Positions 6,571 through 57,643 of a DNA stretch of 64,000 nucleotides are shown piece after piece. The notes under the pieces were generated by a model, which saw nothing but the letters and a program-made list of their open reading frames with translations, was not told where the DNA came from and searched no databases. The stretch lies in the NCBI RefSeq assembly GCF_024505045.1, contig NZ_JANIBM010000003.1, forward strand, positions 1 to 64,000. Direction: 5' to 3'. Made by a program: the position numbers and the translations under genes. The stretch comes from Methylomonas aurea (GTDB lineage: Bacteria; Pseudomonadota; Gammaproteobacteria; Methylococcales; Methylomonadaceae). Position 1 is the first letter of the stretch, and every line of letters starts with the position of its first letter.

Positions 6571-7053
6571 TCAGGGCCGATATTGGGAAAACACATAGTC
6601 GGTTTTTTGTTCCGAAGCATGGCAGGCGAAACAGCTTGTGCCGCCATCCTTGACCAAACGTTCGGTCTTGCTGTTGCCGGCAAAGCCCTCGAAGCCCCAG
6701 CCGCCGGTCGCGGCATATTTTTTCGAATCTTTCTGCATCACACCCAGTAGTTTGCGCTCGCCTTCCTGAATGGTTTTATCCTTTTCCTGGTATTGCAACA
6801 GGTCGAATACCAGCACGGAGCCGTCTTGATATTTGCCGGATTTCAATCCGCTTTCGGCTTTTTTATTGGCATAGACGTGGTGCAGGCCTTGAAACGGATT
6901 TTCCAGGGCGTGGCCGGGCTGAATCAGCATGCTTTTGGCATGCAGCCAGGTGCGATAGCCTTCCGGGTAAGCCACGCTGTGTTCGGCGGCTTGGGCCGAG
7001 GCAAAAAGGGTCAGTAACAATCCGGCGGTGGACATTGAAAAGCGCGTATTCAT
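6571..7053 (-). CDS. Cytochrome P460 family protein
   Basis: Periplasmic c-type cytochrome of 160 residues with signal peptide MNTRFSMSTAGLLLTLFASAQA and a single C-terminal haem site CFACH (about residues 147-151). The block KKYAATGGWGFEGFAG is the signature of the cytochrome P460/cytochrome c'-beta family. P460 in methanotrophs and ammonia oxidisers oxidises hydroxylamine, made when methane monooxygenase acts on ammonia; c'-beta relatives bind NO instead. I cannot tell the two apart here because the cross-linking lysine needs an alignment. GGGGAG lies nine bases upstream of the ATG. A 43-bp near-perfect palindrome sits directly before that ribosome site. Confidence 0.88.
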   Translation of the reverse strand: MNTRFSMSTAGLLLTLFASAQAAEHSVAYPEGYRTWLHAKSMLIQPGHALENPFQGLHHVYANKKAESGLKSGKYQDGSVLVFDLLQYQEKDKTIQEGERKLLGVMQKDSKKYAATGGWGFEGFAGNSKTERLVKDGGTSCFACHASEQKTDYVFSQYRP

Positions 7054-42928: not shown

Positions 42929-43253
42929 GAAGGTGATCGATGAATAAACCAACCAGGAGCCAAGCACTTTTCGTACCTGCTGCCAAAAGACGGGCATCGC
43001 CGCCGGCAAATCGCACCCGATCGACGCTGCTCTGCCCGGTTATAGTGCCTTGGATCTAATTTTGGGCAAAGCAGAGGCGTCTGAGTTGGTGCGCGATGCG
43101 CCGGTCTGGTGCGTTGTTGGGTGGGGTGCGATGCGCTTCGCAAAAACCGCTGCTATTGGCGCTGGTACGAATCCTGCTCCAAGACTCCGCCGAGGACGCG
43201 GCAAATTCGCGGCCGCCGTTCCGTATCCGGTAACTTTGCAGGGATTTAGCCTT
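42929..43253. other. Divergent spacer between GGDEF-EAL and Cache genes
   Basis: About 325 bp, no supported gene. The frame of the Cache gene is open through most of it (from 43050), but without a ribosome site or conserved features. It should contain the divergent promoters of both genes; I see no clear operator. Confidence 0.4.
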
Positions 43254-45275
43254 ATGAACTTATTGATCGAGAAACACACGCCCAAATTGCTGAACGCAAT
43301 GGTCGACGTCAGAAATTTCGAAACGCGTCTGGCGCAACTGAACGACTGGTGGGGAAAAATCGCGTTGATCGGCAAGATCAACAGCCACAATGTCGCCCCG
43401 ACCATTTTGGACGACATGGCGCGTACGCAAAGCAAATTCGGCGAACTGCAACGCAAGTTGACGCATAACCTGCTGGTGGAGAACTTACAGAAATTGGTGC
43501 TGGATAATGCCTCGAAAGCGCAGGTGGCGATCGACCTGCTGGTGCGCAACCTGTTCGAGCGCACCGCGGACGTCGGCTTTCTGGCCACCGACGACGATAT
43601 TCGAGTGTTTTTGGCTGAAGCCGAGCCGGAGCCGGAACAGGTTCGCTTCATCGAAAACCGGCTGCGCGAATACGTGAAAAAATATAGCGTTTACGACGAA
43701 ATCGCCATATTCGATGCGCAAGGCCGGCTCAGGGCGCATCTGGACGCCGATAACCGGATCGAAGCTATTGATCCGCTGGTGGCGGAGACGTTACAGAGCG
43801 ATTGCCCTTACCTGGAAACCTTTCGTTACAGCGTGCTGCAAGCGGACCGCCGCCGCTCGCTGATTTATTCCTGCAAGATCACCGAAACCGACCAGAAAAA
43901 CTCCCGGGTTTTGGGCGTACTGTGCCTGTGTTTTCGGTTCGAAGACGAAATGCGCGGCATATTCGCCGATCTGTTGGCGGCGGGCGACCGGGGCATCATC
44001 GCCATCCTCGATGCCGAGCGGCGGGTGATTGCCAGCAGTAACGAACAGTTGTTACCGGTGGATACGCGATTCCGTGGCGGCGAAGCGATCGGTCTGGTCA
44101 ATTTTCAGGGCCACGACTATATCGTCAATACCCGGCCAAGGAACGGCTACCAGGGATATTACGGCTTGGGTTGGTGCGGGCAGATGATGACGCGACTGGA
44201 TTTTGCTTTCGGCCGTGAATCGGGCGAGCGGATCGATTTCGACTACAGCGAGATCATCGGCCAATCCGACAGCTTCCCGCAGGAGCTAAGGGAAATCCGT
44301 AAGGCTTCGGTCGATATCAATGCCGATTTGGGGCTACTGGTATTGAACGGGAAAATCGCCTCCGCCCGGCAGAATGCGGCCGAATTCATGCCGGTGCTGG
44401 AAGCGATCAAGCAAATCGGTACCGATATCGCCGGCATTTTCGCGGCTTCGGTGAACAGCTTGCAGGAAGTGACGGTGATGTCGTCGCATCTGAACAACGC
44501 CGGCTTCTTGGCGTCGCTGGCCGTCAACATCATGGACCGTAACCTGTACGAGCGGGCCAACGATTGTCGCTGGTGGGCTCTGACTTCGGCCTTTCGGCGC
44601 AATCTGGCGAAAGCCGAAATCAGCGCCGCCGAAAAGCGGCAGATGTGCGAAATCCTGGCTTATATCAATGCCCTATATACGGTCTATACCAACCTGTACC
44701 TGTACGATGCGCAAGGCGAAATTATCGCCGTATCGGATGCTGCGCAAACGCCGTTGATCGGCAGCAAGGTCGACGAAACCACCGGATATAAAACAGTATT
44801 GAACGACGCGGACAGTCAGCATTACGGAGTATCCGATTTCGTGCCGACTCGCTTCTACCAAGGTCGCCACACCTATATTTATAACGCTGCGGTGACCGAT
44901 CCGGCCGATCACGGTCGAGTCGTCGGCGGTATCGGCATTGTGTTCGACAGCGAACCGCAATTCAGTGCGATGCTGCAGGAGATTCTGCCCAGAGAATCGG
45001 ACGGCGCCCCGCTGAAAAACAGCTTTGCCGTGTTTACCGATCGCCAGGGACGCATTCTGGCGCTTGCCAACCATCGCCATTACCGGGTCGGCGAACGTTT
45101 GCCGCTGGATTCCACCCACTTTGCGTTGAAAAACGGTCAGACCAGTTCGTCGCTGCTTCGCCACGAAGGAGCTCATTACGTGTTGGGGGTTGCGGCTGGG
45201 AAGGGCTACCGAGAATACAAAACTGCGGACGGTTACCGTAACGACGTGCTGGCCTTCGTGTTCATTCCGCTATAG
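43254..45275 (+). CDS. Soluble protein with two Cache-like sensor domains and no output domain
   Basis: Protein of 673 residues with no signal peptide or membrane helix. Two regions look like double-Cache sensors: about 75-300 (IRVFLAEAEPEPEQVRFIEN and YSVYDEIAIFDAQGRLRAHL, then GDRGIIAILDAERRVIASSN) and about 420-670 (YTNLYLYDAQGEIIAVSD, NSFAVFTDRQGRILALANHR). A helical segment between them (about 330-430) resembles chemoreceptor coiled coils. Neither kinase, GGDEF nor methyl-accepting signature is present. A scaffold or ligand-responsive partner of a signalling enzyme is an inference; the divergent GGDEF-EAL gene is a candidate. AGGGA precedes the ATG at 43254. Confidence 0.8.
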   Translation: MNLLIEKHTPKLLNAMVDVRNFETRLAQLNDWWGKIALIGKINSHNVAPTILDDMARTQSKFGELQRKLTHNLLVENLQKLVLDNASKAQVAIDLLVRNLFERTADVGFLATDDDIRVFLAEAEPEPEQVRFIENRLREYVKKYSVYDEIAIFDAQGRLRAHLDADNRIEAIDPLVAETLQSDCPYLETFRYSVLQADRRRSLIYSCKITETDQKNSRVLGVLCLCFRFEDEMRGIFADLLAAGDRGIIAILDAERRVIASSNEQLLPVDTRFRGGEAIGLVNFQGHDYIVNTRPRNGYQGYYGLGWCGQMMTRLDFAFGRESGERIDFDYSEIIGQSDSFPQELREIRKASVDINADLGLLVLNGKIASARQNAAEFMPVLEAIKQIGTDIAGIFAASVNSLQEVTVMSSHLNNAGFLASLAVNIMDRNLYERANDCRWWALTSAFRRNLAKAEISAAEKRQMCEILAYINALYTVYTNLYLYDAQGEIIAVSDAAQTPLIGSKVDETTGYKTVLNDADSQHYGVSDFVPTRFYQGRHTYIYNAAVTDPADHGRVVGGIGIVFDSEPQFSAMLQEILPRESDGAPLKNSFAVFTDRQGRILALANHRHYRVGERLPLDSTHFALKNGQTSSSLLRHEGAHYVLGVAAGKGYREYKTADGYRNDVLAFVFIPL

Positions 45276-45569: not shown

Positions 45570-45607
45570 AAAAAAAAACGGGCCGGACGCCGGTTGGCGT
45601 TCGCCCG
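45570..45607 (-). terminator. Strong intrinsic terminator of the 46096/45844 gene pair
   Basis: On the minus strand CGGGC-GAACGCC-AACC-GGCGTCC-GGCCCG forms a hairpin of about 12 bp with a 4-nt loop, followed by nine T residues (plus-strand A run at 45570-45578). It follows the 45632-45844 gene at 25 bp and supports real transcription of these small genes. Confidence 0.85.
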
Positions 45608-45631
45608 ATTGGAGGTTGCTGTTACCGCTGA

Positions 45632-45844
45632 CTAAAAAAATTCGATATTCGGGCGTGTTAGAACGGGGATGGCACTAGCGGAGGCTGTATCGGCAACCGA
45701 CTCCGACGTGCCGGCCGGCGCCGAGCGTTCCGCCGCCGGTGCATTCGCCGTTGCCAGAATCAGGCCGATGACGATGAACAGCAGGCTGATTGCGCAGCGC
45801 TTCAACTCGTGCAGACAGGCCGTTAACAGTTTGGAATGGTTCAT
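45632..45844 (-). CDS. Small exported or membrane-anchored peptide
   Basis: Protein of 70 residues: basic N-terminus, a hydrophobic stretch AISLLFIVIGLILATANA that looks like a signal peptide or single membrane helix, then a short Ser/Ala-rich tail. GGGAG lies seven bases before the ATG at 45844, which is why it is preferred over the ATG at 45850. It is followed by a strong terminator and preceded on the same strand by the zinc-ribbon gene (48 bp), so the two are likely co-transcribed from the sigma-54 promoter at 46188. No family recognised. Confidence 0.65.
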   Translation of the reverse strand: MNHSKLLTACLHELKRCAISLLFIVIGLILATANAPAAERSAPAGTSESVADTASASAIPVLTRPNIEFF

Positions 45845-45892
45845 TAGCATGCTCCCGATGGTTTTTGTTGTTGGCCGCCGGTTGGGCGGATT

Positions 45893-46096
45893 TCACAGGC
45901 TGGCGTTTTTGACCGGCCGCAGGTGCGGCATCTCGGCTTTGCGCGCCTGGTTTTGCCGATAAATTTCCAGCGCTTCGCTACGCATTTGTTCGCAGAACGC
46001 GCATAGGGCCTCGCCGCCGTTATACAGGCGTTGTTCGTGCTGGGACAAGCTGTCGCCGCATCTGTCGCAATAATGGGGAAGGCGTAATCTGTTCAT
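45893..46096 (-). CDS. Small zinc-ribbon-like protein
   Basis: Protein of 67 residues with two Cys pairs, Cys10-Cys13 (HYCDRCGDSL) and Cys32-Cys35 (GGEALCAFCEQM), the arrangement of a treble-clef or zinc ribbon. It could bind zinc and interact with nucleic acid or protein; I do not recognise a named family. GGGAG lies nine bases before the start codon. It is the first gene of a two-gene minus-strand unit and has a sigma-54 promoter candidate about 75-90 bp upstream. Confidence 0.75.
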   Translation of the reverse strand: MNRLRLPHYCDRCGDSLSQHEQRLYNGGEALCAFCEQMRSEALEIYRQNQARKAEMPHLRPVKNASL

Positions 46097-46173
46097 GGCA
46101 ATCGGCTCCCGTTCGGTCTGGTTGGATTAAACGTTGTTTGGCGTCGTTAGGTAAGAGAACTATTTCACTTATG

Positions 46174-46188
46174 GCAAATCCCGGGCCA
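46174..46188 (-). promoter_or_regulatory. Predicted sigma-54 promoter of the zinc-ribbon gene
   Basis: Read on the minus strand, TGGCCCGGGATTTGC has GG and GC separated by exactly ten bases and matches the TGGC and TTGC cores. It differs from the consensus at the fifth base of the -24 element. Transcription would begin near 46162, leaving a leader of about 65 nt. Confidence 0.6.
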
Positions 46189-46306
46189 AATAACCTAGCT
46201 GCCGGCTTTGTTTTTATAAAGCAATGAAATTTAATGGATTTTTTGGTTGAGTCGAATGTTTTGCCGGCTGGCGGCGGGCGGAGTCGGCCAAAGTCGTTAC
46301 TATTAT

Positions 46307-46437
46307 TCGTAGCGGATACGACATTTCGTAAATAATGGCGGCAGATGGCGTATTGTCACGGCCCGGCGTTGCGGCTGAGGCTGGCAGTTACGAAATAGCG
46401 TCAACTCCGACTTGAAATGTGATACATTTCGCTAAAT
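46307..46437. promoter_or_regulatory. Cluster of ATTTCGTA-type motifs between divergent operons
   Basis: Candidate regulator sites: TCGTA-GCGGA-TACGA (46307-46321), ATTTCGTAA (46323-46331), its exact reverse complement TTACGAAAT (46388-46396), and GAAATGT-GAT-ACATTTC (46414-46430) followed by GCTAAA. They lie about 145-275 bp upstream of the predicted sigma-54 start near 46162 and directly before the 46505 gene. Similar motifs occur before the sigma-54 promoter at 2096. Confidence 0.5.
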
Positions 46438-46504
46438 TTCGACCCGGACTTGTACTTTCAACCAATAGCAATCGAGCCAGGCTTCTTTCGGCAGAGAACC
46501 CAAC

Positions 46505-47638
46505 ATGCGGCGACGACACCGTTCAGCGAACTTTTTCCGTAAGCTGCGTACGCTTGCCGCGGCGGTTCATGTACTTGCGTTGCCCTGCGCTGCGGCGCAA
46601 GCGGCCGGTCTCGGCCACGCCGGCCACGCCTCGGGCTCCGATTCCAGCATGTTGCCGGGCGACCTGCTGTTGTTTCCGGATTTGACCGGCATCGTCCGCT
46701 ACGATCAGGAACCGCAAAAAAAACTCAGCACCGGCGACGTGATTCCGGCCATCAACGTGTTTTATACCGCCGATTACGAACGCTTCCGCTTTCTCGGCGA
46801 ATGGCTGATCAGCAGCAAAACCCACAACCTGGAACGGTTTCAACTCGGCCTGCATCTCGGCGACGAATCCAGCCTGTGGCTGGGGCGGTTTCACAACCCG
46901 ATCGGCTACTGGAACATGCAGTTTCACCACGGCGCGTTTTTGCAGACGACGATTAGCCGACCCGGCATCATGGCTTTCGAAACCGCCGGCGGCGTGATTC
47001 CCAACCATCTGACCGGCTTTCTGTGGGAAGGTGTGCACCAGCTCGGCGAAGGCGGCGTCTATTACACGATCGGCGCCGGCGCCGGCCCGCAAATCAACCG
47101 CGGCCTGGAAGCGTTCAATCTGGTCGAGCCGGCTGGCTCGCACCGGCCGGCCGCTTCATTCCGCCTCGGTTACCAACCGGTCAGTTTTGGCGTCGACGAG
47201 TACGGCATATCCGGCGCTTACAACCAGATCCATTCCGACGAATTGGCGGTCAACAACGTCACTCAATACGTCGCGACCGCCTACGCCAATCACCAGATCG
47301 ATGCGGTCACGCTGCTCAGCGAACTGGTCTATGTCAACAACCGCCTGGAAAATCCTCGCGGCGGCGCCAAGAACGACGATTTTCTCAGTGCCTACGGCCA
47401 GGTGGAATGGGAGGTGTTACCGCACTGGACTTTGGTCGGCCGGGTGGAGGGCACTTTCGGCGCCAACCGCGACCCCTATCTGGCGATGTTCCCCAAATTC
47501 GTCGACGACCGCTTCATGGGCGCCGTGCGTTATAAAGTCAATAACAACATGGCGTTGAAGGTCGAGGCCTCGCGCGACCATCTGCGCGACGACCATTTCG
47601 GCGTCGTGATGTTTCAGTGGAGTGCGGTATTTCCATGA
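46505..47638 (+). CDS. Outer-membrane beta-barrel protein (porin-like)
   Basis: Protein of 377 residues with a signal peptide (hydrophobic segment around TLAAAVHVLALPCAAAQAAG) and alternating beta-strand patterns such as LGLHLGDESSLWLGRFHNPI and YGQVEWEVLPHWTLVGRVEG, ending near the aromatic-rich VVMFQWSAVFP. It should form a barrel in the outer membrane. Histidines follow the signal peptide (GLGHAGHAS), a possible metal-binding spot. It is first in an operon with a PstS-like protein, a hybrid kinase and a sigma-54 response regulator, all joined by 4-bp overlaps, which suggests a role in ligand entry for the sensor. Ligand unknown. Confidence 0.8.
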   Translation: MRRRHRSANFFRKLRTLAAAVHVLALPCAAAQAAGLGHAGHASGSDSSMLPGDLLLFPDLTGIVRYDQEPQKKLSTGDVIPAINVFYTADYERFRFLGEWLISSKTHNLERFQLGLHLGDESSLWLGRFHNPIGYWNMQFHHGAFLQTTISRPGIMAFETAGGVIPNHLTGFLWEGVHQLGEGGVYYTIGAGAGPQINRGLEAFNLVEPAGSHRPAASFRLGYQPVSFGVDEYGISGAYNQIHSDELAVNNVTQYVATAYANHQIDAVTLLSELVYVNNRLENPRGGAKNDDFLSAYGQVEWEVLPHWTLVGRVEGTFGANRDPYLAMFPKFVDDRFMGAVRYKVNNNMALKVEASRDHLRDDHFGVVMFQWSAVFP

Positions 47639-48096
47639 AGCTGTTGTTGCGCGGCCTGTGCCTGTTCGGTTTGCTATTCCTGCTCGGCCTACAAAGCCTG
47701 AAGGCGGTTACCAGACAGTCGCTGGTGTTGGTCACCGGCACCGCGTCGTCGGTGCCGGCCTTGACCGTGCAGGAAGCCAGAAAACTGTTTCTGGGCGTGC
47801 CGCTGGAGAAGGGCGGCGAGCGCCCGGTGCCGTTGCTGAACGTCAGCGATCCGTTGATTTACGAAGTGTTTTTGCAGAAAGTCGCGTTCATGTCGGCGAA
47901 CGCCTATGAGAATCAGACCATTTCCATCGTGTTCCGCCTGGGCGGCAAACGGCCGGAAAGTTATAGCGATCTGAAGGATTTGCTGGCGGCATTGCAACAA
48001 CATCCCGGCACCGTCACCTATCTATGGGAAGACCAGGTCCGGGGCAATCAAGCTATCAAAACGGTTAACGTGTTATGGCAGGGAGCAGCGGAATGA
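47635..48096 (+). CDS. Short PstS-like periplasmic binding protein
   Basis: Protein of 153 residues with a signal peptide or anchor (LCLFGLLFLLGLQSLKA). The mature part (LTVQEARKLFLGVPLEKGGE and HPGTVTYLWEDQVRG) resembles the small PstS-like 'phosphate ABC transporter substrate-binding' proteins that stand without a transporter. Length is half of a true PstS, so it probably covers one lobe and serves as a sensor accessory. The ATG overlaps the barrel gene stop (ATGA), and its own stop overlaps the kinase start in the same way. Confidence 0.75.
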   Translation: MKLLLRGLCLFGLLFLLGLQSLKAVTRQSLVLVTGTASSVPALTVQEARKLFLGVPLEKGGERPVPLLNVSDPLIYEVFLQKVAFMSANAYENQTISIVFRLGGKRPESYSDLKDLLAALQQHPGTVTYLWEDQVRGNQAIKTVNVLWQGAAE

Positions 48097-50732
48097 AGCG
48101 GTTTTTCCATAGTTTCAACGGACGCATGATTTTGGCGGTGGTCGGTATCCATTTGCTATTGGTGCCGGTGTTGTTATTCGGCATCTATCGGGTGATCAAG
48201 CCCAGCGTGGAAGCTCAATTCGTCAACTTCGTCCGCTCCGACGCGCTGTTGTTCGGCAATTTGATCGCGCCGCGCCTGGGCGGCGGCAAGAGCCGGGAAG
48301 TGCAGGAGTTGTTGGGCGAATTTTTGTTGAACGGCCGGCTGGCCTACGCCGACATCGTCAGCGAGAGCGGCGAATTGCACGCCGACGTCGAATTGAACGC
48401 CAAGCAGCAATTCCAGGAAGATTTCTTCTTCGGCGAACACGGCGACGATATTTATTTCCTGGCCGTGCCGGTCGCCAATCCCAACGACGGTTCGCTGGCC
48501 ATGCTGCGGCTGGGTTACGACGAGCGCCAGGTGCGTCGCGACATCGTCGTCATTTACCAGCGTAGCGCCTACTTCGTCGCGATTTACCTGGGCTTATCGC
48601 TGCTGGTGGTGGGTTTGTTCGGCCGCCGCCTGGTCAGCCCGTTGGAGCGCCTGCGCGACGAGGCCGAGCAAATCGCCGCCGGCAACCACACCCGCCAATT
48701 CAGCTCCGGCACCAAGATCAGCGAAGTGCTGGCGTTGACTGAGCATCTGGAGAAAATGCGCCAGGCGCTGGTGTCGGCCCGCGACGCGGCGTTGCAAGCC
48801 GCCGGCGCCAAAACCGAATTCCTGGCGAACATGAGCCACGAGATCCGCACGCCGATGAACGGCATCATGGGCATGATCGGTTTGGCCTTGCGTACCGATT
48901 TGACGCCGCAGCAGCGCGAGTTTTTGTCGATGGCCAACAGTTCGGCCGACGCCTTGTTGCGCATCGTCAACGACATTCTGGATTTTTCCAAGATCGACGC
49001 CCGCAAACTGGAACTGGACCACGCGCCGTTCAAATTGCGGGAGAGCCTGGGCGATACCTTGAAATTGCTGGCCGGCCATTCCCACGAAAAAGGCCTGGAA
49101 CTGATGCTGCGCATCGACCCGGAAACTCCGGACGACTTGATGGGCGATATCGGTCGCTTGAACCAGGTCATCATCAACCTGGTCGGCAATGCGATCAAAT
49201 TCACCCAACACGGCGAGATCGTGTTGCAGGTCAAGCCCGAGGCGGTCAACGACGACCGGGTCCGGCTGCATTTTGCCGTGCAGGACACCGGGATCGGCAT
49301 TCCGCGCGACAAACAGCAATTGATTTTCGAAGCCTTCGCTCAAATCGACGCCTCGTCCACCCGCAAATTCGGCGGTACCGGGCTGGGGCTGTCGATCTCG
49401 TCGCGGCTGGTCGAATTGATGGGCGGCCAGTTGTGGCTGGAAAGCGAGGAACACAAAGGCAGCACCTTTTATTTCAGCGCCTGGTTCGACCGCCACAGCC
49501 GCAGCGACGCCGAGGCCGCCGTGCCGACGCTGATCGACGTCAAAGGTCTGCCGGTATTGATCGTCGACGATAACAACATCAATTTGCGGGTGTTCGAAGA
49601 AATCCTGCACCATTGGGGCATGGCGCCGACCACGGTCGACAGCGGCGAGGCGGCGATCGTTGCGCTGCAGCGCATGGCCGAAACCGGCGGCACTTATTCA
49701 TTGATTCTGCTCGATGCGATGATGCCGATCATGGATGGCTTCATGGTCGCAAAAATGATTCGGGAAGACCCGCGGCTGGAGCCGGTGACGATCATGATGC
49801 TATCGTCGGCCGACCGCCCCGACGACTCGGAACGCTGCCGCGATCTGGGCATTAATTTGTACGTACGCAAGCCGGTCAAACACTCCGAGCTGTGGCACGC
49901 GATCCAGTCTGCGCTGGGCAAGGCCGAAAGCCGCTCTGCCGACTGCGGGCCGTTGGTCTTGGCGAAACCGCCGAAATTACTGAAAATTTTATTGGCCGAA
50001 GACAACCCGGTGAACCAATTCATGGCCGTGGCACTGCTGGAAGAACGCGGCCACAGCGTCCAGGTCGCCAACAACGGCCGGGAAGTGCTGGATATTTTGC
50101 AGCAGGACCAATTCGATCTGATCCTGATGGACGTGCAGATGCCGGTGATGGACGGCTTTCAGGCCACCGAAGCGATTCGCGCAGCGGAAGCGCAAACCGG
50201 CAAACGCCAGCGTATCGTGGCGATGACCGCCCATGCCTTGAAGGGCGACCGCGAACGTTGTTTGGCCGCCGGTATGGACGATTACATCGCCAAGCCGGTG
50301 CAGGAACAGGAATTACTAGCGACTGTGGAGTGTTGGAATATGGCGGCGATAGAACCCGAAACCCAAAGCGGCGCGGCGCCGGACGCGCCGGCACTGGAAT
50401 GGCAGGAGGCCCTGAACCGGGTGCGCGGCCGTAACCAGTTGTTGGCCAAGATGATGTCGCTGTTTCTGGAGCAGGCGTCCGGTTTGCTGGACGATGCGGC
50501 CGAGGCCATCAAGCGCCGCGACGGCGAAGCCCTGCGCCTGTCGGCGCATACCTTGAAAGGCTCGGCCAACAGCATCGGCGCCTTCGAGTTCGGCAAAATC
50601 GCTCAGCGCATCGAGTCCTCCGGACTGGAAGCGGCCTACGACGACGCCGACGCCGATCTGGCCTTGCTGCGCGCGGCGATGCTGCGCCTGGAGCCCGAAA
50701 TCCAAACTTTCCTGGCCGAGTACAGCGTATGA
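48093..50732 (+). CDS. Hybrid sensor histidine kinase (TM-sensor-HAMP-kinase-REC-REC-HPt)
   Basis: Protein of 879 residues. Two membrane helices (MILAVVGIHLLLVPVLLFGI and FVAIYLGLSLLVVGLFG) frame a periplasmic sensor of about 130 residues. HAMP, HisKA (MSHEIRTPMNGIMGMIGL), HATPase (DTGIGIP, FGGTGLGLSI), two receivers (LILLDAMMPIMDG and LILMDVQMPVMDG) and a C-terminal HPt (LSAHTLKGSANSIGAFEFG) follow. The chain is complete for a multistep phosphorelay that would end on the next gene's receiver. Overlaps of 4 bp with both neighbours show tight coupling with the periplasmic protein and the sigma-54 regulator. Confidence 0.92.
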   Translation: MKRFFHSFNGRMILAVVGIHLLLVPVLLFGIYRVIKPSVEAQFVNFVRSDALLFGNLIAPRLGGGKSREVQELLGEFLLNGRLAYADIVSESGELHADVELNAKQQFQEDFFFGEHGDDIYFLAVPVANPNDGSLAMLRLGYDERQVRRDIVVIYQRSAYFVAIYLGLSLLVVGLFGRRLVSPLERLRDEAEQIAAGNHTRQFSSGTKISEVLALTEHLEKMRQALVSARDAALQAAGAKTEFLANMSHEIRTPMNGIMGMIGLALRTDLTPQQREFLSMANSSADALLRIVNDILDFSKIDARKLELDHAPFKLRESLGDTLKLLAGHSHEKGLELMLRIDPETPDDLMGDIGRLNQVIINLVGNAIKFTQHGEIVLQVKPEAVNDDRVRLHFAVQDTGIGIPRDKQQLIFEAFAQIDASSTRKFGGTGLGLSISSRLVELMGGQLWLESEEHKGSTFYFSAWFDRHSRSDAEAAVPTLIDVKGLPVLIVDDNNINLRVFEEILHHWGMAPTTVDSGEAAIVALQRMAETGGTYSLILLDAMMPIMDGFMVAKMIREDPRLEPVTIMMLSSADRPDDSERCRDLGINLYVRKPVKHSELWHAIQSALGKAESRSADCGPLVLAKPPKLLKILLAEDNPVNQFMAVALLEERGHSVQVANNGREVLDILQQDQFDLILMDVQMPVMDGFQATEAIRAAEAQTGKRQRIVAMTAHALKGDRERCLAAGMDDYIAKPVQEQELLATVECWNMAAIEPETQSGAAPDAPALEWQEALNRVRGRNQLLAKMMSLFLEQASGLLDDAAEAIKRRDGEALRLSAHTLKGSANSIGAFEFGKIAQRIESSGLEAAYDDADADLALLRAAMLRLEPEIQTFLAEYSV

Positions 50733-52516
50733 CGATGTCCGCCCGCTCCGACGCCAAGCCCACCATCCTGATGGTGGACGATAATCCGGTGAATCTGGAA
50801 GAGCTGGCGTTTTTATTGAACGATGCCGGTTTCGACGTGCTGCGCGCCGAGACCGGCGAGACGGCGCTGGAGCTGGCGAAAAGCCGGCAGCCGGATCTGG
50901 TGTTGCTGGATGTGCTGATGCCGGGCGTGGACGGTTTTACCACTTGCGCCACGTTGAAAAGCCATCCGGCCACGCGCGAGATTCCGGTGCTGTTCATGAC
51001 GGCGCTGGCCGACACCGCCAACAAGGTGCAGGGTTTTCATGTCGGCGCGGTCGATTACATCACCAAGCCGTTTCAATACGAGGAAGTCATCGCCCGGGTG
51101 CAAACCCATTTGACCCTGCAAAAACTCAAATCGGAGTTGCAGGAAAAGGAGCAACGCCTGTCGCGCATCTTCGAAAATGCGATGGATGCGATCCTGGCTT
51201 TGGATCAAGACGGGCGGATTACCATGTTCAATGCCGCCGCCGAGCAGATGTTCCGTTGCAAGGCCGGCGATACCATCGGCCGCGCCGTCGACCGCTTCCT
51301 GTCGCCGGAGCTGTACAAGACCGTGACCAACTTTCGCGCCGGCGTGCCGGCCAAGCAGGCGATCTGGATTTCCGAGGGCACGACCGCCCGCCGCGGCGAC
51401 GATAGCGAATTTCCGATCGAGGCGACGATATCGCGGGTCGAAGCGTCCGGGCAGCAGCTTTACATCCTGATTCTGCGCGACATCAACGAACGCAAGGCGC
51501 GGGAACAGGCGGAAGCCGAATGCCATACCCTGCGCGGCATCAACTCCTACCTGCAGGAAGAAGTTTTGGCCAGCCGCGACGGCGAGGAATTGATCGGCAA
51601 CTCGGCCGGCCTGCGCCAGGCCATGGCCTTGGTCAAGCAGGTGGCGGCGACCGATGCGACGGTTTTGATCACCGGCGAGACCGGCACCGGCAAGGAGTTG
51701 ATTGCCCGGGCGATTCACAATCTGAGCGGGCGCAAGGACAAGACGCTGGTCAAATTGAACTGCGCGACGATCCCGGAAAATCTGGCCGAGAGCGAATTGT
51801 TCGGCCACGAAAAAGGCGCCTTCACCGGCGCGATCAACCGCAAACTGGGCCGGTTCGAGCTAGCCAACGGCGGTACGCTGTTTCTCGACGAAATCGGCGA
51901 ACTGCCGTTGGAAATGCAGGCCAAACTGCTGCGCGTATTGCAGGAGGGCGAATACGAGCGGGTCGGCGGCACCCAAACCCTGAAATGCGACGTGCGGGTC
52001 ATCGCGGCGACGCACCGCGATCTGGCCCAGTTTTCACAGGAGGGCCGGTTCCGCGCCGACTTGTATTACCGGATGAACGTGTTTCCGATCCATTTGCCGC
52101 CGCTGCGCGAACGCAAGGAAGACATCCCGCATTTGGTGCGGCATTTCATCGGCAAGTACGCCGCCAAATTCGGCAAGAAGATCACTACGATTCCGGATAG
52201 GCTGATGTCGGACATGCAAAGCTACATCTGGCCCGGCAATATCCGCGAATTGCAGCACATCATCGAACGCGCCGTGATCCTGACCAACGGCTCGCAACTG
52301 GCCAACGTCGAATGCGTACACGCCACCGCCAACGCGGCGCAAGCCTCGGGGCCCATCGTCACGCTGGACGAAGCCGAACGCCAGCACATTCTGAAAGCGC
52401 TGGAAGCCACCTCGTGGCGTATCGCCGGCAACCAAGGCGCCGCCAAAATCCTCGGCGTGCCGTCGACCACGCTACGCTCGCGGATGGAGCGTTTGGGTAT
52501 CAGCAAGCCGGTTTGA
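50729..52516 (+). CDS. Sigma-54-dependent response regulator (REC-PAS-AAA+-Fis)
   Basis: Protein of 595 residues. The receiver domain ([13 protein letters not shown]; phospho-Asp in [13 protein letters not shown]) is followed by a PAS domain (about 140-260), the sigma-54 AAA+ domain with Walker [14 protein letters not shown], the sigma-contacting loop GAFTGA and Walker [16 protein letters not shown], and a C-terminal Fis helix-turn-helix ([20 protein letters not shown]). It drives open-complex formation at -24/-12 promoters when phosphorylated. Target genes are not known; the divergent sigma-54 promoter at 46188 and the one at 2096 are candidates. An extra PAS domain in such a regulator suggests a second input. 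Confidence 0.93.
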
Positions 52517-52730: not shown

Positions 52731-53258
52731 ATGCGCCAGATCATATATGCCCTCGGACTCTCTCTACTGTGTAGCCAAGCTCAGGCCCACGGCCCGACCC
52801 CGCAAAAGGCCAAAGAAAGTGTGATGATTCAGGCGCCGGTCGCCAAGGTCTGGGAGGCGGTGAAAAACTTCGACGATATCGGCAATTGGCATCCGGATTT
52901 GAAGGCGGCCGAGGGCGACGGTAAAAACCAGTCCGGCGGTACTCGCAAACTGACCTTCCAAAACGGCGAAAGCATCGTCGAAGAACTCGATTACTACAAC
53001 GACGCCGAACACGAATACAGCTACCGGCTGAAAACCGAAAACGTCAAAGCCTTGCCGACCAGTTCGCATACCGTCGATCTGAAAGTCGCGCACGGCGACA
53101 GCGCCGATTCCAGCGTCGTCACGCTGAAAAGCCGCTTCTACCGCGGCGACACCGGCAACACGCCGCCGGACAACCTGAACGACGCCGCCGCGGTCGAGGC
53201 CATGACCCGGTTTTTTAAAGACGGCTTGAACGGGCTTAAGGCCAAGTTGGAAAAGTAG
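52731..53258 (+). CDS. mxaD: MxaD-like periplasmic SRPBCC protein
   Basis: Protein of 175 residues with signal peptide (MRQIIYALGLSLLCSQAQA) and the START/SRPBCC fold: KESVMIQAPVAKVWEAVKNF, DDIGNWHPDLKAAEG. Sequence pattern, size and the HGPTPQK N-terminus match MxaD, a periplasmic factor that in Methylobacterium helps methanol dehydrogenase interact with cytochrome cL. In Methylobacterium mxaD lies in the large mxa operon; here it stands alone 2.6 kb upstream of mxaF, which supports a methanol-oxidation role. No clear ribosome site precedes the ATG. A general SRPBCC protein of other function cannot be excluded. Confidence 0.7.
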   Translation: MRQIIYALGLSLLCSQAQAHGPTPQKAKESVMIQAPVAKVWEAVKNFDDIGNWHPDLKAAEGDGKNQSGGTRKLTFQNGESIVEELDYYNDAEHEYSYRLKTENVKALPTSSHTVDLKVAHGDSADSSVVTLKSRFYRGDTGNTPPDNLNDAAAVEAMTRFFKDGLNGLKAKLEK

Positions 53259-53363
53259 CGGCGGCAACGAGTTTGCCGCTCGCGCAGCAGATCGGAGTCA
53301 ACGGCAGCACCGGCCCCGGCGAATTTGCCGACGCCGGTTCGGCCGGGAGAGCATTGTTCCGGT

Positions 53364-53837
53364 CTAATTTCCGCCGAACTGCGCCAAAAAACCTTCCCAG
53401 TTCCGGGTCGTCACCGTGTTCAAGTAGGCTTCGGCCATTTCGGCGGTGAGTAATTCGAACAACACCCGGTTTTCCAGCCAAACTTCCACCACCTGAAATA
53501 ATCCGCCGCGGTCGCACGTTAGCGCCCGCCAACCTTCCCGGGCGGCAATCGCTTTGATCGACGCTTCGTCTAAAGACACCGACAACGCGGCGTGGCTGGG
53601 CACGTAATCGGGCCGATCCGCATCGTATTGAAATTGCACGTCCTGCTCGCCGGAGCCGGGCACCATCACGGTACCGAGCGGATAAACCTCGACCAGCGTG
53701 GCGTGGCCGTCGTCGCAGATCGCGACATGGCTGCCGCGTGCGGACGGAAACGGGTAGGCCTTGCCGCCGATCAATTCGGCAACGACTGACGCCACTCGGG
53801 CCGGGTCATGGGCGGAAATCGATAAATGATGAATCAT
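53364..53837 (-). CDS. VOC (glyoxalase/dioxygenase superfamily) protein
   Basis: Protein of 157 residues with a beta-alpha-beta-beta-beta VOC pattern: MIHHLSISAHDPARVASVVA, GKAYPFPSARGSHVAICDDG, and AALSVSLDEASIKAIAAREG. Possible metal ligands are the early histidine pair and a later glutamate (ENRVLFELL). The reaction cannot be read from sequence; relatives include glyoxalase, fosfomycin-resistance and dioxygenase enzymes. The ATG at 53837 with GAGA upstream gives the natural family start. It converges with the MxaD-like gene. Confidence 0.8.
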   Translation of the reverse strand: MIHHLSISAHDPARVASVVAELIGGKAYPFPSARGSHVAICDDGHATLVEVYPLGTVMVPGSGEQDVQFQYDADRPDYVPSHAALSVSLDEASIKAIAAREGWRALTCDRGGLFQVVEVWLENRVLFELLTAEMAEAYLNTVTTRNWEGFLAQFGGN

Positions 53838-54404
53838 GTTCGGTTCTCTATAGAGTTTATGTTGCGTTAGTCGGCCAAGTAAGCCGACAGGATATGTTAG
53901 CCAATTAACGGCAAAAATGTTCGGCTGGATGCTGTCGCGAGTCTTGGGGTCGGTGCGTTTGCATCGAGCCGGTGAACGCTTCGCCAATTGGCGCTAAGCA
54001 TGCTGGCTCTGGTTCCAACGCTTTCCGCTCATCGTTTTACAAAAGTACCGTCATGCCCGCAGGGTGTCAGGCAGGACAGCCTGACATTAATCCCCGCCGG
54101 AATCACGGTTATCGACCATAGATGTGTATAACGGCGAGCGGCCCTCCGCGGGAATTAGTACTCGGTTTGGGAAGTACGTCATTGGGGTAGCTGCTACCCT
54201 GTGGCTATGAAATGAAAATGGCAGCTCAGCAACCTATCTCGGTGTCCGAAAAAGTTGACTACTATACATTTCTTGTTGGAACAAGTTGGGGAGACGCTCC
54301 CGCATCTCGATCCGCGAAGAGGTAGAAGTTGCATTCCTACGCTGGAGCGTCGGAGCGATAACAAACAAGACAGCTTTAAATTTTGGGCGCGGTTTTTATC
54401 CCCT
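53838..54404. other. Spacer with repeat remnants
   Basis: About 570 bp with no supported gene. A GTCATGCCCGC-type repeat begins near 54050 and includes TGTCAGGC/GCCTGACA (54065-54084). Otherwise unremarkable. Confidence 0.4.
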
Positions 54405-54620
54405 TATGCCGCGCCGAGCACCGGAGGGTTTGGGCGGATCAGCCCGTAGGGGCGATGCGGGGATGCATCGCGTTTTCGGAGGGCTAGGACAGCCCTTCCG
54501 AAAAACCCGCTCAAACCCTTCGGAGCGCAGGAGTCAAGCGGCATGGGGGTGTCGTTTCTTTTGGATACTTTTCTTTGGACAAGCAAAGAAAAGTATCACG
54601 CCCGCCGGTGCGGGAACCGG
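54405..54620. repeat. Composite palindromic repeat region
   Basis: Nested inverted repeats: an outer pair around GGAGGGTTTGGGCGG and its imperfect complement; TTTTCGGAGGGCT/AGCCCTTCCGAAAA within it; and a perfect 14-bp stem GATACTTTTCTTTG (54564-54577)/CAAAGAAAAGTATC (54584-54597) with a 6-nt loop. The last is a well-known kind of dispersed repeat in proteobacteria. No coding function assigned. Confidence 0.75.
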
Positions 54621-54695
54621 CATTCAAAAATCCGTCGCGATAGCGACACAACAAATCGGACTCCAACGCCGCAGCAGCGTTGAATTCCAATCCCC

Positions 54696-55352
54696 TCAAG
54701 CCGCCGTACTTTTAATAATCCCCTGCCGGCTGGCGAGCAACGTCATTTCCGACATGGTTTTAACGCCCAACTTTTCCTTGATCGCGGTGCTGTGGTTGCA
54801 GACCGTCTTGTAACTCAAACACAGTTTCTCTGCCGCTTCGCGGGTGCTGAGGCCGTTGGCCAGCAGACAGAAGATGTCGAACTCGCGCGGCGACAGCGAT
54901 TTGATTTTGTACGACTCGTCCTGGCCTACCGCCATGTTGACCGCCAATTGCTGGGCCAGGTCGGGATCGATGTAGGTGTTGCCTTCGGCGATGGCGCAGA
55001 CGGCGGTGACCAAGGTGTCCGGCTCGTTGTTCTTGGTGATGTAGCCTTTGGCGCCGGCCTTGATCGCGCGGGTAACGTAGACCAGTTCGTTATGAATGCT
55101 GAAGATCAGGATGCGGCAGGCCGGATGACGGCTCAGCAGGCGGCGTACCGATTCCAGACCGCCCAGGCCGGGCATCGATAAATCCATGACTACGACGTCC
55201 GGGGTGTGCCTGGAATAAATTTGGCAGGCGATTTCGCCGCGGTCGGCTTCGTAGATTTCGCCGATGCGCTCGGACAGCGACAGGTAAGTCTTGTAACCGG
55301 CTCGGACCACGGCGTGGTCGTCCACCAATAACACGCTGATTTTGTTTGCCAC
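54696..55352 (-). CDS. LuxR/NarL-type response regulator, probable methanol-gene regulator
   Basis: Protein of about 218 residues: receiver domain with acidic pocket LLVDDHAVV and phospho-Asp in VVMDLSMPGLGG, followed by a LuxR helix-turn-helix (SLSPREFDIFCLLANGLSTR, then CLSYKTVCNHSTAIKEKLGV). Divergent from mxaF with a 480-bp spacer, it resembles in type and position MxaB, a NarL-type regulator of mxaF in Methylobacterium; orthology is not proven. The start is non-ATG: GTG at 55352 or TTG at 55358, with AGAGGA upstream of both. No cognate kinase is next to it. Confidence 0.88.
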   Translation of the reverse strand: MANKISVLLVDDHAVVRAGYKTYLSLSERIGEIYEADRGEIACQIYSRHTPDVVVMDLSMPGLGGLESVRRLLSRHPACRILIFSIHNELVYVTRAIKAGAKGYITKNNEPDTLVTAVCAIAEGNTYIDPDLAQQLAVNMAVGQDESYKIKSLSPREFDIFCLLANGLSTREAAEKLCLSYKTVCNHSTAIKEKLGVKTMSEMTLLASRQGIIKSTAA

Positions 55353-55834
55353 AGGCAATACTTCCTCTTTCGCGGATTGTGTAAAAGCGGGTCCGGTACG
55401 CGGGGTCGGTCGGACTTATTTTCATGATGCCGCTTTTTCGTCCCCGAAACCATGGGAGCTTTTCCTGTTTATGCTTCTGGCGGATTTGATGCGTTCTGGG
55501 AAAGATTCCAGCTGTTTTTTCGCGATTTTCCCGTGTTTTTCATGGATTATTCCGTAACGCCGGGCCGGGCGGTTTCTTTACCATTTCTCGTCAGCATGGC
55601 CCGGTAGGTCTAAGTCAATGATGTGTGCGAATTGATCGAGACTGCTGATCTGAAAAAGTCAGGAGATTGCCGGATTGTGGCGTCTCGCGTTAAAGGATGA
55701 ACGCCAAAATCAAAGCGCATCTAGCTATTGATTTTGCCCGGATACGCCGGGTGCGTATCCGCTTTGAACGGAAGGCTCCCCTAACCAACCGATTTGCCGG
55801 GCCATGCACTCTAATAAACAACACAGGAGGATTC
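55353..55834. promoter_or_regulatory. mxaF upstream region
   Basis: About 480 bp between the divergent regulator and mxaF. It must contain the strong mxaF promoter and the regulator promoter. I could not find a confident -35/-10 pair or a sigma-54 site. The frame upstream of mxaF is open from 55697 but has no ribosome site. Confidence 0.5.
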
Positions 55835-57643
55835 ATGCAAATTTCACGGTTTGCCAAGAACGTGGCGACATCGGCCGTTTTGACCGGAGCAGCGTTGAGC
55901 GTGCCGCAATCGGCGCAAGCGAATAAAGAGCTGGAGCAACTTTCCAAACAAAATACCAACTGGGTGATGCAGACCAAGGATTACGGTTCCACCCATTTCA
56001 GCGAGATGATCGACATCAACGCCAACAACGTCAAGAACCTGAAAGTGGCATGGTCTTTCTCGACCGGCGTACTGAACGGCCACGAAGGCGGTCCGCTGGT
56101 GGTCGACGGCATCATGTACGTGCACACCCCATATCCGAACAACGTGTTTGCCATCGATTTGAACGAGCCGGACAAGATCCTGTGGCAGTTCAAACCCAAA
56201 CAAAACCCGGCAGCCCGCGCGGTAGCGTGCTGCGACGTGGTCAACCGCGGCTTGGCCTACGCCCCGGCCGGCAAGGATTATCCGGCCACGATCTTTTTGA
56301 ATCAGTTGGACGGTCATGTCGTGGCGCTGAACGCCAAGACCGGCGAGCTGCGTTGGAAAATGGAAAACTCCGATATCGCCATGGGTTCGACTTTGACCGT
56401 GGCGCCTTTCGTCGCCAAGGATAAAGTCATCGTCGGTTCGTCCGGCGCCGAGCTCGGCGTGCGCGGTTACGCCACCGCGTTCAATATCAAAGACGGCAAG
56501 CAAGAGTGGCGGGTTTACGCGACCGGTCCCGACGAAGACATCAAGTTGTCGAAAGACTTCAACAAAGCCAACCCGCATTACGGCCAGTTCGGTCTGGGTC
56601 TGAAAACCTGGGAAGGCGATGCCTGGAAAATCGGCGGCGGCACCAACTGGGGCTGGTATGCCTACGACAGCGACCTGGAGATGTTGTACTACGGTTCCGG
56701 TAACCCGGCGCCTTGGAACGAAACCATGCGTCCCGGCGACAACAAATGGACCATGACCATCTGGGGCCGCGACATCAACAGCGGCGAAGCCAAATTCGGC
56801 TACCAGAAAACCCCGCATGACGAGTGGGACTATGCCGGCGTCAACTACATGGGCTTGTCCGAGCAAGTGGTGGACGGCAAGAAACGCAAACTGCTGACTC
56901 ATCCGGACCGTAACGGTATCGTCTATACCCTGGACCGCGAGAACGGCGATCTGATCAACGCGTTCAAGATCGACGACACCGTCAACTGGGTCAAGAAAGT
57001 CGATCTAAAAACCGGTCTGCCGGTGCGCGACCCGGAATATTCGACCCACATGGACCACCAAGCTACCGGCATCTGCCCATCGGCGATGGGTTACCACAAC
57101 CAGGGCATCGAGTCTTACGACCCGAACAAACAACTGTTCTTCATGGGCGTCAACCACATCTGTATGGACTGGGAACCGTTCATGCTGCCTTACCGGGCCG
57201 GCCAATTCTTCGTCGGCGCGACTTTGAACATGTATCCGGGCCCTAAAGGCACCCTGGGTCAAGTCAAAGCCATGAACGCGGTGACAGGAAAAATGGAATG
57301 GGAAGTTCAGGAGAAATTCGCGGTCTGGGGCGGCACCATGGCCACCGCCGGCGACTTGGTGTTCTACGGCACCCTGGACGGTTACATCAAAGCCCGCCAC
57401 TCCAAAACCGGCGAGGAGTTGTGGAAGTTCAAACTGCCTTCCGGCGTTATCGGTCATCCGATCACCTATAAACACAATAATAAACAATACGTTGCGATTT
57501 ATTACGGTGTCGGCGGCTGGCCCGGCGTTGGCTTGGTATTCGACTTGGCCGACCCGACTGCAGGTCTGGGTGCGGTGGGTGCGTTCAAGGAATTGGCGCA
57601 CTACACCCAAATGGGCGGCGGCGTGATGGTGTTCTCTTTATAA
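55835..57643 (+). CDS. mxaF: PQQ-dependent methanol dehydrogenase large subunit (calcium type)
   Basis: Protein of 602 residues with signal peptide (ending VPQSAQA). It oxidises methanol to formaldehyde in the periplasm with PQQ and calcium, passing electrons to cytochrome cL. Visible features: adjacent cysteines 132-133 ([12 protein letters not shown]) that form the disulfide over PQQ, Glu206 ([11 protein letters not shown]) as metal ligand, and catalytic Asp332 in [11 protein letters not shown]. The residue two after the catalytic Asp is Ala334; XoxF-type lanthanide enzymes have Asp there, so this is MxaF. AGGAGG precedes the ATG. First gene of the mxa operon. Confidence 0.97.

Follow-up and report, generated by a model that had tools for sequence, protein, structure and literature searches.

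A conserved Methylomonas operon for a probable envelope-sensing phosphorelay, predicted to head a dispersed sigma-54 regulon that includes type VI secretion

The operon and its divergent partners

The stretch of DNA analysed here (the window) comprises positions 1 to 64,000 of contig NZ_JANIBM010000003.1 from Methylomonas aurea (NCBI RefSeq assembly GCF_024505045.1). It contains a plus-strand operon of four genes coding for a putative outer-membrane protein, a half-size PstS-like protein, a hybrid histidine kinase and a sigma-54 response regulator, from which two very small genes, preceded by a sigma-54 promoter, diverge on the minus strand. Judged by sequence conservation, the operon and the divergent tiny genes are a real, conserved sigma-54 signalling system, as an earlier note on this DNA had proposed. 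That note had also called the system self-contained, a claim that finds no support here: its upstream activator site (UAS), with a phased -24/-12 element, recurs before a type VI secretion system (T6SS) cluster and several other genes. It appears likely that the operon encodes a phosphorelay that senses the envelope and stands at the head of a dispersed sigma-54 regulon in which the T6SS is included.

The four open reading frames (ORFs; 46505-47638, 47635-48096, 48093-50732 and 50729-52516) overlap by 4 bp at each junction, and the six genes and their overlaps, as previously placed, are all confirmed in the window sequence. The kinase/regulator overlap is shared by only three loci closely related to the window (L058-L060); in 12 others, 28-97 bp separate the two genes, and L071 is cut at that point. 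The third gene (48093-50732) encodes an 879-amino-acid (aa) hybrid histidine kinase with the Pfam architecture HAMP-HisKA-HATPase-REC-REC-Hpt, i.e., the HisKA, HATPase, REC and Hpt domains of a phosphorelay, and its orthologues adjoin the PstS-like gene. At locus L059 (genome G109, around 6640-7014), the kinase reading frame begins late compared with that of the near-identical relative L060, so that the G109 gene may contain a frameshift or a sequencing error. The fourth gene (50729-52516) encodes a 595-aa response regulator (Pfam Response_reg, Sigma54_activat and HTH_8) which, with its REC domain, AAA+ domain carrying GAFTGA and Fis-type helix-turn-helix (HTH), is built like an NtrC-like bacterial enhancer-binding protein (EBP). 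The earlier assignment of both proteins, including the extra PAS domain between the REC and AAA+ domains of the regulator, agrees with Pfam.

The first gene (46505-47638) encodes a 377-aa exported protein, putatively of the outer membrane, with orthologues (63-95%) in 17 genomes. It has no match in Pfam, in NCBIfam or, with a profile from a close alignment, among PDB profiles, and its AlphaFold model is unusable (predicted local distance difference test, pLDDT, 30); the ORF placed earlier stands, and its barrel is a candidate fold. The second gene (47635-48096) encodes a 153-aa exported protein found at E<1e-60 in 17 of the 237 genomes of the family, all of them Methylomonas and referred to below as operon-bearing, with weak matches (1e-12 to 1e-4) in six further family genomes. 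No Pfam match was obtained for any of 14 members, nor an NCBIfam match for the window protein. The close-alignment profile gave no PDB profile match, and a wider 14-member profile retrieved seven PDB chains at E<=10, namely four PstS chains (E 0.026 to 0.75, the best being 4exl), a molybdenum-binding protein, a CS2 hydrolase and a myosin; the AlphaFold model (pLDDT 43) is too poor to use. The protein has no recognisable periplasmic binding protein (PBP) domain of the full two-lobed length of PstS and, given its 153 aa, the lack of a Pfam match and the weak PstS matches, it is labelled PstS-like and not PstS. The gene is where the earlier note had placed it, its likeness to PstS being tentative.

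The divergent unit, on the minus strand, comprises a 67-aa zinc-ribbon (CxxC..CxxC) protein (45893-46096), with weak, sub-cut-off Pfam zinc-finger matches, and a 72-aa peptide (45632-45850) whose start is, by alignment, probably the second Met (45844). The peptide has one hydrophobic segment, either a signal anchor or a signal peptide; about 40 N-terminal residues are kept among its relatives (a basic stretch, the hydrophobic segment and NAPAA), and its variable tail ranges from about 13 to 68 residues. Upstream lies the sigma-54 -24/-12 element TGGCCCGGGATTTGCC (TGGCCCG-GGAT-TTGCC; 46173-46188, minus strand), which was found by scan and places the +1 near 46162. This promoter, already recognised in the earlier note, is confirmed in sequence and kept at 17 of 17 loci, where the GG-N10-GC element agrees with 9-11 of 12 consensus positions. 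A hairpin with a U9 tail (45570-45607, minus strand) is the probable terminator of the unit. The hairpin, called strong in the earlier note, appears in the fold, but the region as a whole does not fold exceptionally (z -1.48; 19 of 200 shuffles equally good), and a simple terminator scan did not report it. Rfam at gathering thresholds gave no match in the window.

Conservation ties the two units together. Wherever the operon is kept, the zinc-ribbon gene, the peptide and the GG-N10-GC site are retained (17 of 17 genomes), although in G106 a contig end separates the operon from the pair, which lies on another contig. The loss of the tiny genes or of the site from a conserved operon, which the earlier note had named as refuting its reading, was thus looked for and seen in none of the 17. 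This conservation is greater than chance, and the sigma-54 element persists even though identity in the zinc-ribbon protein has fallen to about 40-55%. Of the 27 genomes searched for regulator orthologues, 16 have one (82-98%), all operon-bearing, the seventeenth operon (G133) being cut by a contig end. Across the 237 family genomes, a peptide profile matches all 17 operon-bearing ones at E<=8.2e-22, and in the other 220 only three have any rows, at 3.4e-4 to 6e-3; the peptide family is thus essentially confined to the 17 genomes with the operon. A second membrane-peptide copy lies away from the operon in G112 (C70:2417-2605), and the divergent unit of L071 (G133) holds two zinc-ribbon genes. 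The zinc-ribbon family is broader: at E<=0.01 it is represented in 34 of the 237 genomes, and in those without the operon its genes are located elsewhere. Its relatives were considered as a wider sigma-54 family and rejected: in the 500 bp upstream of nine operon-less loci the best score was 8, with six loci having an 8, two reaching 7 at best (matches of at least 7 counted) and some having none. As for zinc-ribbon paralogues, that of G115 (L090) has two upstream sites scoring 9 and that of the window genome (L089) none.

Control sites at the locus and across genomes

The UAS (46298-46330), located between the operon and the sigma-54 element, is a sequence pattern of two dimer sites 19 bp apart, TACGAnATnTCGTA-N5-TACGAnAT, in which N5 is the spacer. 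Its centre is 126 bp from the -24/-12 element in the window and 126-128 bp from it in 17 of 17 operon loci. A single dimer site, TACGAAATAGCGTC (46389-46402), precedes the operon and is probably autoregulatory. In each of the 16 loci compared (G106 left out), it stands exactly 28 bp upstream of TGTGATA (46418-46424, plus strand), a conserved heptamer that may be the extended -10 of the operon promoter, and 71-93 bp before the operon start. This fixed spacing suggests that the bound regulator would touch polymerase at its own operon promoter, as activator or repressor.

The UAS is not restricted to the locus. Allowing at most one mismatch, a short form of the pattern was searched in 20 genomes (G133 left out) and was found at the operon in 16 of 16 operon-bearing genomes, at additional places in 12 of these 16, and in one of four operon-less genomes, G128. 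The full UAS was searched in 27 genomes, of which ten are operon-less congeners, half of the 20 operon-less members of the genus. At up to three mismatches it gave 181 strand-matches in the 17 operon-bearing genomes against 14 with a reversed-pattern control, and a single strand-match in the ten operon-less congeners, where the control gave seven. It thus recurs beyond the operon in 17 of 17 operon-bearing genomes (the places in G127 and G133 come from a repeat search, and those in G126 are among the matches listed) and is absent from nine of the ten operon-less congeners. Because most UAS are near-symmetric and counted on both strands, the number of places is about half that of strand-matches, and some chance matches must be among the three-mismatch hits.

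The UAS also come with promoter-like elements at preferred distances. A -24/-12-like element scoring at least 9 of 12 (the C of the -12 element not being required) lies 100-140 bp from 55 of 64 placed UAS, as compared with 3% of 4000 positions drawn at random from these loci; 65 UAS had been found, one of which was too close to a contig end, and the comparison draws on distances and scores alone. All five UAS of the window genome (on contigs C3, C7, C24, C25 and C29, the C3 site being the discovery site) have an element scoring 10-11 at 95-129 bp, scores of at least 10 occurring at 0.6% of 30,000 random positions in these loci. Nine UAS outside the 64, five from Methylomonas sp. LW13 (whose T6SS UAS is already among the 64) and four from G133, all have an element scoring 8-10. 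UAS-to-element distances gather at about 95, 105, 117, 127 and 137 bp. A Rayleigh test on 22 hand-picked distances (L111, L131, L134 and L144 left out, as were the rows of L118 and L120 that scored better on the wrong strand) gave p<=0.001 at all five periods tried; the result mainly reflects clustering at 126-129 bp and, with every period significant, a 10.5-bp period is not proven.

The predicted regulon and its regulator

In the window genome, the predicted targets of the UAS are the zinc-ribbon/peptide pair, a PI-PLC-X protein (L092), a GGDEF protein taken as a diguanylate cyclase (L128), an exported PEP-CTERM protein with a tail-collar protein next in line (L127), and the T6SS cluster, where the UAS lies between tagF and tssA (L129). 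Relatives of the GGDEF, PEP-CTERM and collar proteins are also found behind UAS in other genomes, together with exported T4-gp19-like proteins, a protein of 860-964 aa that matches nothing in Pfam, a small ORF of 67-69 aa, an EamA-like protein, a peptidase-C80-like protein, a CHAT-TPR protein before tssA in G115, and some genes that are without family or unscanned; target proteins of LW13 were assigned by likeness to scanned orthologues. Two arrangements deserve mention. At L122:4335-4832 and L109:4266-4871, a UAS and a -24/-12-like element precede exported proteins that carry the T4 gp19 (tail-tube) domain, an odd combination of phage-tail fold and signal peptide. At L127:5190-7062 and L138:5361-7039, a UAS lies upstream of both an exported PEP-CTERM protein and the exported phage tail-collar protein that follows it.

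The T6SS was followed across the genus. TssB is present in 17 of 17 operon-bearing genomes and in 13 of the 20 other genus members. A T6SS UAS was found in 15 of the 17, by coordinates in G108, G112 and G121 (where the site shares a contig with tssB, 1.5-2 kb away) and from the loci read in the others. No such site was found, at up to six mismatches in the 900 bp upstream of tssA, in four (L113-L116) of the 13 operon-less T6SS-positive members. In the window genome the regulator is encoded on C3 and the T6SS on C25, and no EBP was seen in the T6SS stretch examined, an arrangement distinct from the VasH type, in which the EBP is encoded inside the T6SS cluster.

Several other explanations were weighed. 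That the UAS are chance or composition-driven matches can be dismissed with near certainty: the control does yield 14 strand-matches in 17 genomes at three mismatches, but the pattern itself yields 181, is nearly absent from operon-less congeners, is accompanied by phased elements and recurs at orthologous genes. It is very unlikely that the circuit is closed, with the divergent pair as sole output. The pair always adjoins the operon and has its own sigma-54 element, and the UAS with the fewest mismatches is often the operon's own; against this, the UAS and phased element also precede the T6SS and other genes, and the UAS is missing from nine of ten congeners without the operon. A different EBP might instead activate the dispersed sites and leave the window regulator a local role, which we regard as improbable. 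In the window genome, the sigma-54-activator domain has three weak matches and 16 strong ones, 15 of which carry a GAFTGA-type motif; one of the strong matches, the GAF/PAS sister at C7:84711, has an HTH related to that of the window regulator (score 115, as against 237 for self and 24-60 for the other 14 EBPs). In G128, the only one of the ten operon-less genomes searched to have a UAS, a sister EBP gene is divergent from a lipoprotein-like gene (L184:5045-9546), with the UAS and a sigma-54 site between them, the latter about 90 bp from the UAS centre; this supports a pairing of HTH type with UAS, and implies that a few of the counted sites (e.g., L111) may belong to a sister. However, sisters are also present in G114, G116, G117, G118 and G138, which lack the operon and have no UAS. 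In G113, G115, G120 and G121 there are UAS, yet no sister passes the cut-off of E<=1e-100, and UAS track the operon.

The zinc-ribbon protein and the peptide could also be accessory or effector-related outputs of the T6SS that stand outside the signalling loop. The UAS design common to the pair and the T6SS speaks for this, yet the pair is linked to the kinase operon and was not met in the T6SS clusters read, and the peptide is found in none of the 13 genus members that have a T6SS but no operon, while it is kept in G106 and G107, whose T6SS has no UAS; we consider this alternative unlikely, while giving it some weight. The reading of a dispersed regulon under the operon's regulator has its own difficulties, and the following points weigh against it. 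The folds proposed for the 377-aa and 153-aa proteins are tentative. A scan for sigma-70 promoters gave no hit at the one proposed for the operon, and G106 and G107 lack a T6SS UAS. Many of the -12 elements are non-canonical (TTGA, TTGG, ATGR), the 64 placed UAS, many of them orthologous, are not independent, and the distance windows (90-140 bp) were chosen post hoc. Sister C7:84711 could share some UAS in the window genome, and the one site at L111, found at up to three mismatches, may belong to a sister EBP.

Altogether, these findings lead to a model in which the first two operon proteins would transmit a cue from the surface to the kinase, phosphate would pass along a His-REC-Hpt-REC route to the regulator, and the regulator would bind the UAS as an enhancer and loop to sigma-54 polymerase, with the single dimer site providing autoregulation. 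The operon-specific membrane peptide, predicted to be co-induced, would act in the same pathway, most likely by feedback on the kinase. A bolder proposal, possible but distinctly less secure than the dispersed regulon, is that the system represents a new type of T6SS command, in which a putative outer-membrane protein and half-PstS sensor, a kinase and a sigma-54 regulator would jointly switch on the T6SS, cyclic di-GMP synthesis and exported phage-tail-like proteins, an operon-specific micropeptide feeding back on the kinase.

The surroundings of the operon are less constant. A 741-aa Cache-domain protein without recognised output domain is encoded upstream (window 43050-45275), and an SRPBCC protein, a LuxR-type regulator and a methanol-dehydrogenase-like ORF, XoxF-like by eye, lie 3' of the operon (52731-57643). 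A linkage of the operon to the xoxF region was considered and rejected, the downstream SRPBCC and upstream Cache genes being near it only in the window and L058-L060.

Relation to known systems and significance

The two-component pair FleS/FleR is known mainly for flagella, and we know of no PstS-like or outer-membrane partner gene for it. Together with VasH, Sfa2 and FleQ, this NtrC-family pair appears in a list of T6SS regulators, where it is given for the Pseudomonas H1-T6SS (PMC10482370), so that on the evidence of this list a two-component sigma-54 link to the T6SS has precedent; the likeness lies in a two-component sigma-54 regulator tied to T6SS control. VasH and Sfa2 offer a further parallel, since the Methylomonas regulator is likewise a sigma-54 EBP whose predicted targets are a T6SS cluster and genes not linked to it. 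As described in the same source, however, they are encoded within the T6SS cluster (PMC10482370), whereas the Methylomonas regulator has a REC domain and its own kinase and is located elsewhere.

FhlA binds formate, whereas the Methylomonas protein is a response regulator, and here the half-sites are 5 bp apart in a larger two-dimer array. The ending of the FhlA HTH is one that we take to be similar to that of the Methylomonas HTH. The core half-sites ATTTCGTA/TACGAAAT, as given for FhlA in PMC4987338, match the UAS core, a likeness of sequence only. Other gammaproteobacterial bins (L177 and L178, as well as L180-L183, where the membrane proteins are different ones) show, by eye, the same succession of an exported putative membrane protein, a PstS-like protein of half size and a kinase; the PstS-like identity is 23-46%, the regulators differ, and no UAS was found at up to four mismatches in the stretches examined. 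As for the peptide, MgrB is a small membrane feedback regulator of a kinase. The Methylomonas peptide resembles it in being short, with a hydrophobic segment, and in its predicted induction by the system with which it is inherited; the likeness is drawn from these features, and action on the kinase is putative.

Among the open-access full-text papers listed, none dealt with the operon or with sigma-54 control of the T6SS in Methylomonas. On T6SS control in this genus, the papers listed gave only a transcriptome remark, that in LW13 a gene inside the T6SS cluster rises at the oxygen/methane interface (PMC11072679). Strain LW13 carries the operon system and is genetically tractable, which, together with a defined UAS and a list of promoters, makes the predicted regulon directly testable. 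Two nameless tiny genes and exported phage-tail-domain proteins would also gain a regulatory context, and the control of bacterial competition in this group of methane-eating bacteria becomes testable.

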